64,000 bases of DNA from Sphingomonadales bacterium Ga0077559. GTDB lineage: Bacteria; Pseudomonadota; Alphaproteobacteria; Sphingomonadales; Sphingomonadaceae. The DNA lies in contig LNFK01000039.1 of assembly GCA_001464315.1 (NCBI GenBank), forward strand, positions 1 through 64,000. The letters run 5' to 3'. A program made the position numbers and the translations under genes. Below, one piece after another: positions 13,536 to 58,004 of this stretch (position 1 is its first letter; each line of letters starts with the position of its first letter). The notes below the pieces were generated by a model, which was not told the origin of the DNA, did not search any database, and was given only the letters and a program-made list of their open reading frames with translations.

Positions 13536-13551
13536 TTAATCGCTTGCTTAA
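13536..13551. promoter_or_regulatory. Degenerate copy of the TTAAyCGCGCGrTTAA element
   Basis: The 16-mer TTAATCGCTTGCTTAA matches the TTAAyCGCGCGrTTAA palindrome at 13 of 16 positions: the left half is perfect and the right half keeps G and the final TTAA. It is 22 bp upstream of the first gene of the seven-gene acyl-CoA operon, the same relative position as the perfect copy at 18514. On its own it would not be convincing; it is reported because of three better copies in the window. Confidence 0.4.
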
Positions 13552-13664
13552 ATCAGGGTGAAGGCAATGTAAAAGCGATTGTGCATTGAGCCATCGGCTA
13601 CCCTCGCTCACGCTCTTAATTTTTGCCGGCCACCATGCCCCGCTTGGTGGTTGCCTCGGCAAAA

Positions 13665-13739
13665 TGGTGGGCGATACAAGGTTTGAACTTGTGACCCCTC
13701 GCGTGTGAAGCGAGTGCTCTACCACTGAGCTAATCGCCC
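13665..13739 (-). tRNA. tRNA-Val (anticodon CAC)
   Basis: On the minus strand a complete 75-nt cloverleaf is readable, including an encoded CCA at 13665-13667. The acceptor stem is GGGCGAT/ATCGCCC, the D arm contains TAGCTCAGTGGTAGAGC, the anticodon stem is CTCGC/GCGAG with loop TTCACAC giving anticodon CAC, and the T arm contains GTTCAAACC. A GCCGG/CCGGC-type hairpin with TTTGCC...GGCAAA flanks follows at about 13621-13664 on the minus strand and may stop transcription. An ORF drawn through this tRNA is spurious. Confidence 0.97.
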
Positions 13740-13793
13740 GTCTGTTAGGACAGAAGCGCGCCTTTGGCAGAGCATCGCAGCATTGGCAAGCTG

Positions 13794-14438
13794 TCAGGAG
13801 ACGATTTTGATGTGCGGCTCTGGTGCCAATGCAGCCGATGCCTTGCTGCCCAAACCGATAAAAATCGCGTCGACGATCATCGCCAGCTTTTCCACCTTAA
13901 GCTTGCCTGTGCCGATATAGATAATAGCCTCGGGATTGGTGTAGCATTGCACCATCTGGTTGATCATCGACACCGCCTGATCGATCGAAAGACCACCGAA
14001 ATAGCCCTGCTCCATCGACTCGGCAACGATCAGTGCGAGATAATGATCGCCAAGATCGACATAGCCGCGCACCACTTCGAAATGCTGGCTGCCGATTTCC
14101 ATATAGCTTTTTAGGAGGTCCGGTTCGGCTTCATATTGCACCACCATAGCCTCGAAGCGGCGGGCAAAATATTGGTACATTTTTTCGCGAACCGGCAAGT
14201 CGGAGGCGGTCACCTCCTCCATGATTCGGACTTTTACGGCGAAGAATTTTTCGGCAACCGCTTCAAGCAATGCGTCCTTGCTCTCGAAAAACCGGTAGAG
14301 ATTGGATGGGGACATGCCGGCAGCCGAAGCCAGATCGGTCATCGAAATATCGACAGCGCCACGTTTGCGGATCAGGTCGTCAACGACTTCCAGCAATTCT
14401 TGCCGTCCTGCCTCGATATCGGTCTGAGGGCGGGCCAT
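13794..14438 (-). CDS. TetR family transcriptional regulator
   Basis: A 214-residue TetR-type repressor. The N-terminal helix-turn-helix is clear: ELLEVVDDLIRKRGAVDISM, then TDLASAAGMSPSNLYRFFESKDALLEAV at about residues 32-59. The rest is helical and would form the ligand/dimer domain; nothing identifies the inducer. The gene stands alone between tRNA-Val and dinB. Its promoter region holds a 9-bp inverted repeat that includes its own start codon and an inner TTAGG-CA-CCTAA palindrome, which suggests autoregulation. It is also the only TetR gene in the window, so it is a candidate (unproven) for binding the acyl-CoA operon palindromes. Confidence 0.9.
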   Translation of the reverse strand: MARPQTDIEAGRQELLEVVDDLIRKRGAVDISMTDLASAAGMSPSNLYRFFESKDALLEAVAEKFFAVKVRIMEEVTASDLPVREKMYQYFARRFEAMVVQYEAEPDLLKSYMEIGSQHFEVVRGYVDLGDHYLALIVAESMEQGYFGGLSIDQAVSMINQMVQCYTNPEAIIYIGTGKLKVEKLAMIVDAIFIGLGSKASAALAPEPHIKIVS

Positions 14439-14485
14439 ATATCGCTCCCTGTATTAGGCACCTAAGTCAGTTTTCTGATATATGG
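14435..14485. promoter_or_regulatory. Nested inverted repeats upstream of the TetR gene
   Basis: Outer arms CCATATATC (14435-14443) and GATATATGG (14477-14485) are a perfect 9-bp inverted repeat, the left arm overlapping the TetR start codon. Between them TTAGGCACCTAA (14454-14465) is a 5-bp-arm palindrome with a 2-bp centre. The placement suits autorepression. The distal arm lies just before the dinB stop, so the whole promoter fits in 56 bases. Confidence 0.45.
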
Positions 14486-14494
14486 ATGATATCT

Positions 14495-55570: not shown

Positions 55571-55581
55571 GCTGGTCGTCC

Positions 55582-56796
55582 TCAATTCACGCGTTCAATG
55601 ATGGTTGCGGTGCCCATGCCCGCGCCGATGCATAGCGTAGTCAGCGCGGTCGATTTGCCCGAGCGTTCGAGCTCGTCGAGCACAGTGCCGAGGATCATTG
55701 CACCGGTCGCACCCAACGGATGCCCCATCGCAATCGCGCCCCCATTCACGTTGATGTCGCTATGGTCGATGTTCATTGCTTCCATGAAGCGCAGGACAAC
55801 GGCGGCGAACGCCTCGTTGAGTTCCCAAACATCGATATCGCCCTTGGCCATGCCAGCACGCGACAAGGCCTTTTGCGCGGCGAATTCGGGGCCGGTGAGC
55901 ATGATGGACGGCTCGGAACCGACCGACGCCATCGACACGATCCGTGCACGGGGTTTGAGGCCCATACGTTCGCCTGCTTCCTTATTACCGATCAGTACGG
56001 CGGCTGCGCCATCCACGATGCCCGAGCTGTTGCCAGCATGGTGGACGTGGTTGATCTTCTCGACCTCGGGATAGCGCATGATCGCGATATCATCGAAGCC
56101 GGGCATCATTGTGCCCATCATCTGAAACGCAGGCTGTAGCGCGCCCAATGACTGCATGTCGGTTTCTGGCCGCATCAGCTCGTCATGGTCGAGCAGGACT
56201 TCGCCAATCACATCCCTGATCGGCAGGATCGACTTGGCAAAACGCTTCTCTTCCCATGCCTTCGCGGCGCGCTTCTGGCTTTCGACCGAATATGCGTCGA
56301 CGTCATCGCGGCTATATCCATAGATCGTCGCGATCAAATCGGCTGAAATCCCCTGCGGAATGAAATAATTGGCAATCGCCGAGCGCGGGTCAACCGGCCA
56401 TGCGCCGCCATCCGAACCCATCGGCACGCGGCTCATCGATTCGACGCCGCCGCCTATTGCAAGGTCGCATTCGCCTGACATGACCTTGGCCGATGCGATG
56501 TTCGATGCCTCAAGCCCCGAACCGCAGAAGCGGTTGACCTGAATGCCCGAAGTCGTGTGCGCATAGCCCGCCTGCAAAGCTGCCGTACGCGTGATAACCG
56601 CGCCCTGTTCGCCAACGGGTGAGACGCAGCCAAAGGCGATATCCTCAACCGCATCGGGGGCAAGTCCGTTACGCTCGCGCACGCTGGCGAGCACCTGTGC
56701 CGCCAGATCGAGCGGGGTGATTTCGTGCAGTGCGCCGTCGGAGCGCCCCTTGCCGCGCGGGCTTCGCACCGCGTCATAAATATAGGCTTCGGTCAT
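55582..56796 (-). CDS. fadA: Acetyl-CoA acyltransferase (beta-oxidation thiolase)
   Basis: A 404-residue thiolase that cleaves 3-ketoacyl-CoA. The nucleophilic Cys is in [18 protein letters not shown], the catalytic His in [15 protein letters not shown] and the second Cys in [16 protein letters not shown]. It starts [25 protein letters not shown]. It lies between the racemase gene (two-base gap) and fadJ (11-base gap), as the usual fadA-fadB pair does. It appears intact even though fadJ is broken. The operon's operator is the palindrome at 57989. Confidence 0.95.
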
Positions 56797-56798
56797 AT

Positions 56799-57953
56799 TC
56801 AGTCCTTGTTTGCGACCACGGCACCCGCCGCGATCAATTGGGAGATTTCCGATTCGGTCAGGCCTACTTCGGCTAGGATAGCGGCGTAATCACCGCCTTT
56901 TATTGCAATTTCGAAATGGGTAGCAAGGGCTTGCGTTGCGAGACGCGGCGCGACTTGCGGATGAAGCCACCGGCCGTCCTCAACGACGGTATGACGTTCG
57001 GCGTTTGCAGGGTGCGAGGCGGCCTCGACATAATCGAGCACGGGCGTCACGCAGGCGTCGGTGCCGGCGAATATCGCCTCCCACTCGTCGCGTGTTTTGG
57101 TGGCGAACACATCCTCCAGCATTTCATGCTGCTTGGCGAACGCAGTGCGGTCATGCTGGCCTCCATAGGCCTCAGCGTCGATTGGCAACCGCTCCATCAT
57201 CGCCGCAAAGAATTGCGGTTCGATGCAGCCTACAGCCATGAACTTGCCGTCGGCGGTTATGTAACAACGGTAAAATGGAGCGGCACCATCAAGCAAATTG
57301 CCCTCACGCGCCGTCCGCCACTGGCCGAGCCCCGCCATGCCGTGAACGAAGCTCATCAGGCTATGCGTGCCATCGACAATCGCGGCATCGACGATATTGC
57401 CCTTTCCCGTCCGGCCTCTCTCGATCAACGCAGCCAAGATACCGGTTACCAGAAACATCGACCCGCCACCAAAATCGCCAACCATGTTGAGCGGCGGAAC
57501 CGGCGGTTGGCCATCCTTGCCGATCGCGTTGAGCACCCCGGTCATACCGATATAATTGAGGTCATGCCCCGCCATCTGAGACCAAGGCCCAGTCTGCCCC
57601 CATCCGGTCATGCGGCCATAGATCAGGCCTGGATTGACTACGTGGCAGGCGTCGGGCCCAACACCCATGCGCTCGGTCACACCTGGACGAAGGCCTTCAA
57701 TGAGAATATCCGCAGTCTCGACCAGCTTTAGCAACGCCTCAACTGCTTCGGGCTTTTTGAGATCAAGGACGATGGATCGCTTGCCACGACCGTCAATCGC
57801 CTTGGGCAATCCGCCGCCTGGACGATCAATCACAACCACATCCGCTCCCATGTCGGCCAGCAATTGCCCTGCATATGGCCCAGGTCCGATGCCAGCCAGC
57901 TCGACAACCTTGATGCCGCGCAGGGGTCCGGATTTGGCGGGTGAATCAGTCAT
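56799..57953 (-). CDS. Alpha-methylacyl-CoA racemase / CaiB-BaiF family CoA-transferase
   Basis: A 384-residue class III CoA-transferase-like protein. ELAGIGPGPYAGQLLADMGADVVVIDRPGG (read in parts) is the AMACR-type opening, and both racemase catalytic residues of the mycobacterial enzyme appear: His in MAGHDLNYIGMTG and Asp in MVGDFGGGSMFLVTG. It should epimerise 2-methylacyl-CoA so that branched fatty acids enter beta-oxidation, though a CoA-transferase reaction cannot be excluded. It is first in the operon racemase-fadA-fadJ and has the palindrome 36 bp upstream of its ATG. Confidence 0.88.
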   Translation of the reverse strand: MTDSPAKSGPLRGIKVVELAGIGPGPYAGQLLADMGADVVVIDRPGGGLPKAIDGRGKRSIVLDLKKPEAVEALLKLVETADILIEGLRPGVTERMGVGPDACHVVNPGLIYGRMTGWGQTGPWSQMAGHDLNYIGMTGVLNAIGKDGQPPVPPLNMVGDFGGGSMFLVTGILAALIERGRTGKGNIVDAAIVDGTHSLMSFVHGMAGLGQWRTAREGNLLDGAAPFYRCYITADGKFMAVGCIEPQFFAAMMERLPIDAEAYGGQHDRTAFAKQHEMLEDVFATKTRDEWEAIFAGTDACVTPVLDYVEAASHPANAERHTVVEDGRWLHPQVAPRLATQALATHFEIAIKGGDYAAILAEVGLTESEISQLIAAGAVVANKD

Positions 57954-57988
57954 GGCATCCTTCCGTTACGGAAAAGCAGCATGCGCGG

Positions 57989-58004
57989 TTAACCGCGCGA
58001 TTAA
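57989..58004. promoter_or_regulatory. Palindromic operator TTAACCGCGCGATTAA before the racemase operon
   Basis: One base from perfect symmetry and one base from the copy at 18514. An overlapping GCGCGGTTAACCGCGC palindrome (57983-57998) shares its left half. It lies 36 bp upstream of the racemase ATG and 104 bp before the SDR gene, so it could control both directions. Confidence 0.65.

Follow-up and report, generated by a model that had tools for sequence, protein, structure and literature searches.

Which transcription factor recognizes the 16-bp palindrome that recurs upstream of lipid-related operons in Sphingomonadales bacterium Ga0077559, and which genes does it regulate? The palindrome was noticed in a stretch of 64,000 nucleotides (contig LNFK01000039.1, positions 1 to 64,000; hereinafter, the window), which is a part of contig C39 in a genome of 2.86 Mb and 78 contigs. 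A preliminary description of this DNA attributed it to a common repressor of acyl-CoA genes, perhaps the TetR-family protein encoded at 13794 (here P0002). Our analysis points to a different member of the same family: with a probability of about 0.87, P0001 is the factor that recognizes the palindrome TTAAYCGNNCGRTTAA as its operator; as a dimer, it would repress acyl-CoA catabolic operons, its own among them, and would probably be released by an acyl-CoA.

Operator Motif and Regulon Content

All four sites of the preliminary description were found at the positions given there (18514, 57989, 50591, and 13536; Table 1). The distances to the likely gene starts, for which a range of 16 to 55 bp had been reported, are 15-16 bp for the metallo-beta-lactamase (MBL) fold hydrolase, 35 bp for CaiB, 54 bp for the E1 gene (counted from a presumed ATG start at 50536), and 21 bp for the DUF1330 gene. 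The core, described as CGCG, had to be corrected to CG-NN-CG: in 73 exact site occurrences the central two bases vary freely. The revised motif is TTAAYCG-NN-CGRTTAA (TTAAYCGNNCGRTTAA), in which the search itself set all positions but the middle two. In exact sites, the first two bases flanking it tend to be A or T. Using the original motif TTAAYCGCGCGRTTAA with up to three mismatches, we found four matches in the window against a shuffle mean of 1.13; three of 100 shuffles reach four matches, so the weak copy TTAATCGCTTGCTTAA is not significant alone. The revised motif has two exact matches, three with at most one mismatch, and four with at most two, the respective shuffle means being 0, 0.04, and 0.5, and none of 300 shuffles reaches the observed counts. 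At up to three mismatches, the window count (seven, versus 6.0 for shuffles) is that of chance.

The genome-wide scan proposed in the preliminary description returned ten exact sites and none for the reversed pattern, the expectation being 0.03 under a first-order model built from the window. A likely start codon, assigned by eye, follows each of the ten within approximately 65 bp. The genes that follow encode the MBL hydrolase (with the CoA ligase), CaiB, an enoyl-CoA hydratase (ECH), a MoxR-type ATPase (at a contig end), two acyl-CoA dehydrogenases (L012 and L015), a nitroreductase-like protein (by eye), a thiolase, a cytochrome P450, and a GMC oxidoreductase. Six further sites differ from the motif at one position; they lie before the E1 gene and genes for an acyl-CoA ligase, an acyl-CoA dehydrogenase, an amidohydrolase, a pyrroloquinoline quinone (PQQ) dehydrogenase, and an alpha/beta hydrolase.

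Footprinting in relatives, which had also been suggested, showed that the motif recurs before orthologous operons in Sphingorhabdus and eight other genera. Exact sites are present in 24 of 25 genomes of the same genus (93 sites, versus five for the reversed control), and a sample of 149 genomes of the family contains 87 (control, three); 16 genomes from other families of the order contain none (control, five). The sites are concentrated at gene starts: 83 of 103 distinct exact sites have the start of an open reading frame (ORF) of at least 100 aa no more than 120 bp away, compared with 296 of 2060 random positions. The 103 exclude context duplicates and sites closer than 400 bases to a locus end, and the 20 sites with no nearby start, some of which are a wrong-frame ORF pick or lie at a contig end (e.g., L016 and L009), were scored as misses. 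The loci come largely from P0001-carrying genomes, several genomes being represented by part of their sites.

Grouped by similarity, the conserved targets are the MoxR ATPase (13 sites), the thiolase of the tetR operon (12), acyl-CoA dehydrogenase (eight), acyl-CoA carboxylase (seven), a second dehydrogenase (six), amidohydrolase (six), CaiB (six), GMC oxidoreductase (four), and cytochrome P450 (three), with smaller groups and single cases in addition. The distance to the start is constant within groups, for instance, 16-18 bp in the 13 MoxR promoters; the MoxR-type AAA ATPase targets include those in L009, L026, L032, L037, L041, and L049. The CaiB site of the window is conserved, because exact sites also precede the CaiB orthologs (L061, L066, L071, L074, L078, and L081). 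The weak site at 13536 has a counterpart with at most two mismatches in eight of the 25 loci that surround P0002 orthologs, counting that of the window, versus about 0.7 expected by arithmetic from the window shuffle rate. A likely ortholog (by eye) of the acyl-CoA dehydrogenase-like gene at 9159..10436 has its own exact site in G001 (L047).

The enrichment of exact sites, their placement at gene starts, and their conservation at orthologous operons strongly support a common regulator behind an acyl-CoA regulon, as predicted from the sequence in the preliminary description; its choice of P0002 as the factor did not hold, as discussed below. The element does lie mostly near acyl-CoA genes, but it is not exclusive to them, since the conserved targets include the MoxR-type ATPase, GMC oxidoreductase, and amidohydrolase genes.

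The TetR-Family Protein P0001

P0001 (G000:C75:119250-119888) is encoded by the last gene of a thiolase-SDR-ECH-tetR run (SDR, short-chain dehydrogenase/reductase) that begins with an exact site. It belongs to the TetR family, matching PF00440 (TetR_N) with 25.1 bits (gathering threshold 24) and PF14514 (TetR_C_9) with 177.2 bits (threshold 25.3); TetR_N matches in the genome number 14, one of them with an internal stop. Orthologs were found in all 25 genomes of the genus, with 68-90% identity in the other 24 and a nearly invariant helix-turn-helix, the helix sequence GLNSALVKYYFGNK being kept apart from one substitution in G007.

The distribution of P0001 in the family follows that of the motif. 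With carriers defined by at least 57% identity, 17 of the 149 genomes possess P0001, and the motif is present in 15 of them versus one of the 132 non-carriers (G101, where no lipid gene was recognized by eye alongside the single site). Two or more exact sites occur in 14 of the 17 carriers and in none of the others, P0001 thus being present wherever a genome has more than one site. The Fisher p value of this co-occurrence is about 1e-17 with kinship ignored, and the count by genus is nine of ten versus one of 86. In a ClpA tree of 30 genomes picked by hand from the 149 (16 of the 17 carriers, G108 being left out, and 14 others), the carriers do not form one clade (approximately unbiased test, p = 5.5e-42; five changes, at least four of which are forced by well-supported branches). 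Six P0001-negative genomes are nested among the carriers, five with no exact site and G101 with one. G118, one of the five, has a 43% homolog of P0001. Around such 41-43% homologs in G118, G187, G139, and G067, the loci (8.0-8.5 kb) lack sites with zero or one mismatch; the G067 locus has one two-mismatch match, which is not 5' of its tetR, and in G118 and G139, the two seen, the helix differs from that of P0001.

An AlphaFold2 model of P0001 (mean predicted local distance difference test score 85.7) has an all-helical TetR-like fold with a template modeling (TM) score of 0.88 to 2qtq_D at 68% identity. This structure is Saro_1072 of Novosphingobium aromaticivorans (PDB 2QTQ/2RHA), a P0001 ortholog with 65-68% identity over the fold and the same helix GLNSALVKYYFGNK; for Saro_1072 the structure is solved, whereas P0001 has a predicted operator and targets. 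A search of the open literature, with most subscription papers outside its scope and long listings covered in part, yielded no account of the function of Saro_1072 or of the motif; among the matches listed, the paper plainly about the 2QTQ/2RHA entries is on crystallographic software.

Among solved structures of known role, the fold of P0001 is closest to RutR and then to Bacillus FadR (3whb, 3whc, and 5gpc), stearoyl-CoA complexes included. Bacillus FadR is an acyl-CoA-responsive TetR repressor of fatty acid degradation whose regulon consists of beta-oxidation genes; it has the TetR fold in common with P0001 but only 18-22% identity to it, and comes from a different host phylum. P0001 scores below the cut-off of every NCBIfam model matched: FadR (NF053878; 36.4 versus 200), Vibrio PsrA (NF053516; 28.4 versus 300), BetI (42.2 versus 201.3), and RutR (34.2 versus 368). 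The PsrA operator differs from this palindrome, and the target classes of LiuR, a regulator of branched-chain amino acid utilization, overlap those of the regulon described here. LiuR belongs to the MerR family, unlike the TetR-type P0001, and the preliminary description states that its operator, too, does not match the palindrome. FadR, PsrA, and FadP are named as regulators of fatty acid degradation, the latter two in gamma- and betaproteobacteria, in the accessible portion of PMC5343134. PsrA and FadP are TetR-family proteins with multi-operon fatty acid regulons similar to the proposed one, that is, they have the same role in other lineages. It looks as if P0001 works like FadR or PsrA, yet it falls outside those families by the models tested.

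Position of the Operators and Probable Autoregulation

The analysis covered 80 P0001-type loci, of 274 homologous stretches, from public genomes of Sphingorhabdus, Novosphingobium, Blastomonas marina, and other Sphingomonadales; 64 of the 80 are testable, 16 with less than 4.5 kb upstream being left out. The 80 loci (1.14 Mb) contain 72 sites with at most one mismatch and none for the reversed control. Such a site lies 5' of tetR in 59 of the 64 testable loci, mostly about 3 kb before it. Sixty sites precede the thiolase-like start, and TTGAC is situated 21-23 bp upstream of the site in 59 of them, which places the palindrome at the expected -10 box. The predicted operator heads the tetR operon and overlaps the predicted promoter, as would be the case for an autoregulated repressor of the TetR type.

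From these data we infer that a P0001 dimer would occupy the palindrome, on the -10 box or immediately downstream of it, and would prevent transcription of approximately ten or more operons, most of them for acyl-CoA catabolism and one of them its own (thiolase-SDR-ECH-tetR). Its release would probably be brought about by an acyl-CoA or a different pathway intermediate, as suggested by the targets and the fold. Along with the window sites, TTAATCGTACGATTAA is a predicted operator of P0001 and Saro_1072.

Two further features of the tetR neighborhood were observed. A one-mismatch site (L099:744-759) heads an acyl-CoA dehydrogenase-ECH-CoA ligase-aldehyde dehydrogenase run directly 5' of the thiolase-tetR operon. 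In many genomes, tetR is adjoined by a convergently oriented CoA-transferase gene, upstream of which lies a variant site, TTAAGCGTGCAGTTAA, its reverse complement, or close forms (L102, L104-L109, L111-L113, L115-L118, and other loci, beyond tetR); paired changes may be tolerated in real operators.

Alternative Explanations

Several observations weigh against P0001 as the repressor of this regulon. G109 and G177 carry P0001 (57-60% identity) and have no exact site, with a one- and two-mismatch site before the SDR-tetR genes; within the genus, G005 (72%) also has none, and G010, G012, and G022 (68-69%) and G020 (85%) have one each. The commonest target is the MoxR-type ATPase (13 of 83 sites in the fetched loci), whose link with acyl-CoA degradation is not obvious. 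The profiled regulators were four of the 14 TetR_N matches and none from another family, and a gene of the LysR type (by eye, L314:1597-2493) lies in G148 between an aldehyde dehydrogenase gene and the site heading the thiolase-tetR operon. The motif might be bound by a regulator other than P0001 that shares its lineage distribution, P0001 being just one of the targets, as a place in a regulated operon is by itself no proof of a regulatory role. However, apart from the case of G148, no other regulator gene was recognized by eye next to the listed exact sites, and two other TetR genes beside lipid genes (L088 and L085) occur in four and one of the 149 genomes and so do not track the motif; we regard such a regulator as quite improbable. 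P0002 itself adjoins the weak 13536 site and the acyl-CoA dehydrogenase operon and has orthologs in all 25 genomes of the genus (in two pieces in G020), but we rejected it because its distribution fails to follow the motif. At E 1e-25 it is absent from the motif-rich genomes G066 (six sites), G099 (six), and G171 (eight) and present in 24 motif-less genomes of the family sample, and the motif is found in 12 of its 36 carriers versus 15 of 17 for P0001. The window also shows no match with up to three mismatches at the promoter of P0002, whose role as the factor is very unlikely. Two other candidates were discarded. The CtrA-type pattern is TTAA-N7-TTAA; here the gap is 8, and the motif follows P0001. 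The operators proposed for the bile-salt TetR EGO55_16300 of Caenibius tardaugens differ from this motif, judging from the accessible part of PMC12882949.

P0001 could also be the factor and yet act as an activator or dual regulator. TTGAC at -22 or -21 is found in 13 of 87 gene-oriented exact sites, those of the tetR operon included; beyond that operon this spacing is rare and most sites lack a TTGAC at constant distance, which is a point for this reading and against the main one. Against activation, the site overlaps the expected -10 box in the autoregulated operon, and the 83 near-start sites lie 0-77 bp before the start, downstream of the usual activator positions, activators usually binding further upstream. 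Most TetR-family proteins are repressors, and we consider activation unlikely. Finally, the genome-wide number of matches with up to two mismatches is not above the reversed control (43 versus 47; 74 versus 92 in another count of looser matches with up to two or three), so weak sites are not callable from the sequence alone, and these counts would fit chance or a non-regulatory repeat. For the exact sites as a class this explanation is already refuted: instead of the chance frequency and lack of conservation that would have spoken against a regulon, there are ten copies for 0.03 expected, orthologous genes keep their sites across species, and distances are constant within groups. Its overall probability is negligible.

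Genes of the Window

Predicted sites and the genes behind them are listed in Table 1.

Table 1. Operator-like sites and adjacent genes in the window
Feature	Position	Strand	Comment
Operator, exact 16-bp palindrome TTAACCGCGCGGTTAA	18514..18529	.	15-16 bp 5' of the MBL-fold hydrolase start
Operator, exact TTAACCGCGCGATTAA	57989..58004	.	Between the CaiB and SDR genes
Operator with one mismatch TCAATCGCGCGATTAA	50591..50606	.	
Weak operator-like site TTAATCGCTTGCTTAA	13536..13551	.	Two mismatches to the revised motif
MBL-fold hydrolase	17389..18497	-	PF00753; first gene behind the 18514 site
Acyl-CoA ligase (AMP-binding)	15708..17429	-	PF00501; presumed in the MBL hydrolase operon
Fused E1 dehydrogenase (E1_dh and transketolase domains)	48344..50536	-	PF00676, PF02779, PF02780; behind the 50591 site
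FabD-like protein	47313..48347	-	Weak fabD match, 36.7 bits versus cut-off 260.9; presumed in the E1 operon
CoA-transferase family III (CaiB/racemase type)	56799..57953	-	PF02515; behind the 57989 site
Thiolase	55582..56796	-	PF00108, PF02803; presumed in the CaiB operon
FadJ-type multifunctional protein	53413..55585	-	NCBIfam FadJ models match both pieces, each under cut-off
SDR	58027..58890	+	PF13561; divergent from CaiB
DUF1330 gene	13101..13514	-	PF07045; leading gene of the operon presumed to follow the weak 13536 site
Nitronate monooxygenase-like	12156..13097	-	PF03060; presumed in the DUF1330 operon
Acyl-CoA dehydrogenase-like	9159..10436	-	Models under cut-off; presumed in the DUF1330 operon
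TetR P0002	13794..14438	-	Candidate of the preliminary description; rejected as the factor

The FadJ-type gene is split over the overlapping frames 53413-55083 and 55007-55585 by a frameshift or an assembly error. The SDR gene may share the 57989 site with CaiB. A TonB-dependent receptor gene (50720-53344), divergent from the E1 operon and seemingly split into the frames 50720-51877 and 51881-53344 (the first one was scanned), may likewise share the 50591 site. The neighborhood of dinB, P0002, and often the DUF1330 and nitronate monooxygenase genes (13101-15607 in the window) is kept in many genomes of the genus (L131-L155).

A second conserved palindrome, TTGACGCNNGCGTCAA, is located at 58031-58046 in the window, and in promoters of CaiB and acyl-CoA dehydrogenase genes it lies at most about 45 bp from the regulon site. 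It also stands beside regulon sites in L002, L012, L034, L054, L061, L066, L068, L071, L074, L078, and L081, and is possibly the site of a second regulator.

Implications for Acyl-CoA Catabolism in Sphingomonads

Sphingomonads degrade many lipids, steroids, and pollutants. In the literature searched, part of which was accessible in excerpt, we found no description of a general regulator of their acyl-CoA catabolism. We tentatively suggest, at somewhat less than even odds, that P0001 (Saro_1072 type, TetR_C_9) takes the place of PsrA, FadR, or FadP in Sphingorhabdus, Novosphingobium, and related bacteria, as a lineage-specific master repressor of acyl-CoA catabolism. It would sense a methyl-branched, isoprenoid, or steroid-side-chain acyl-CoA, as hinted by the targets (racemase-type CoA-transferase, acyl-CoA carboxylase, P450, and oxidases), and would couple the MoxR ATPase to this catabolism, with TTGACGCNNGCGTCAA as a second input at some promoters. 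A probable regulator gene, its predicted operator, and its putative targets are now named in several genera, and a role is suggested for the orphan crystal structure 2QTQ.

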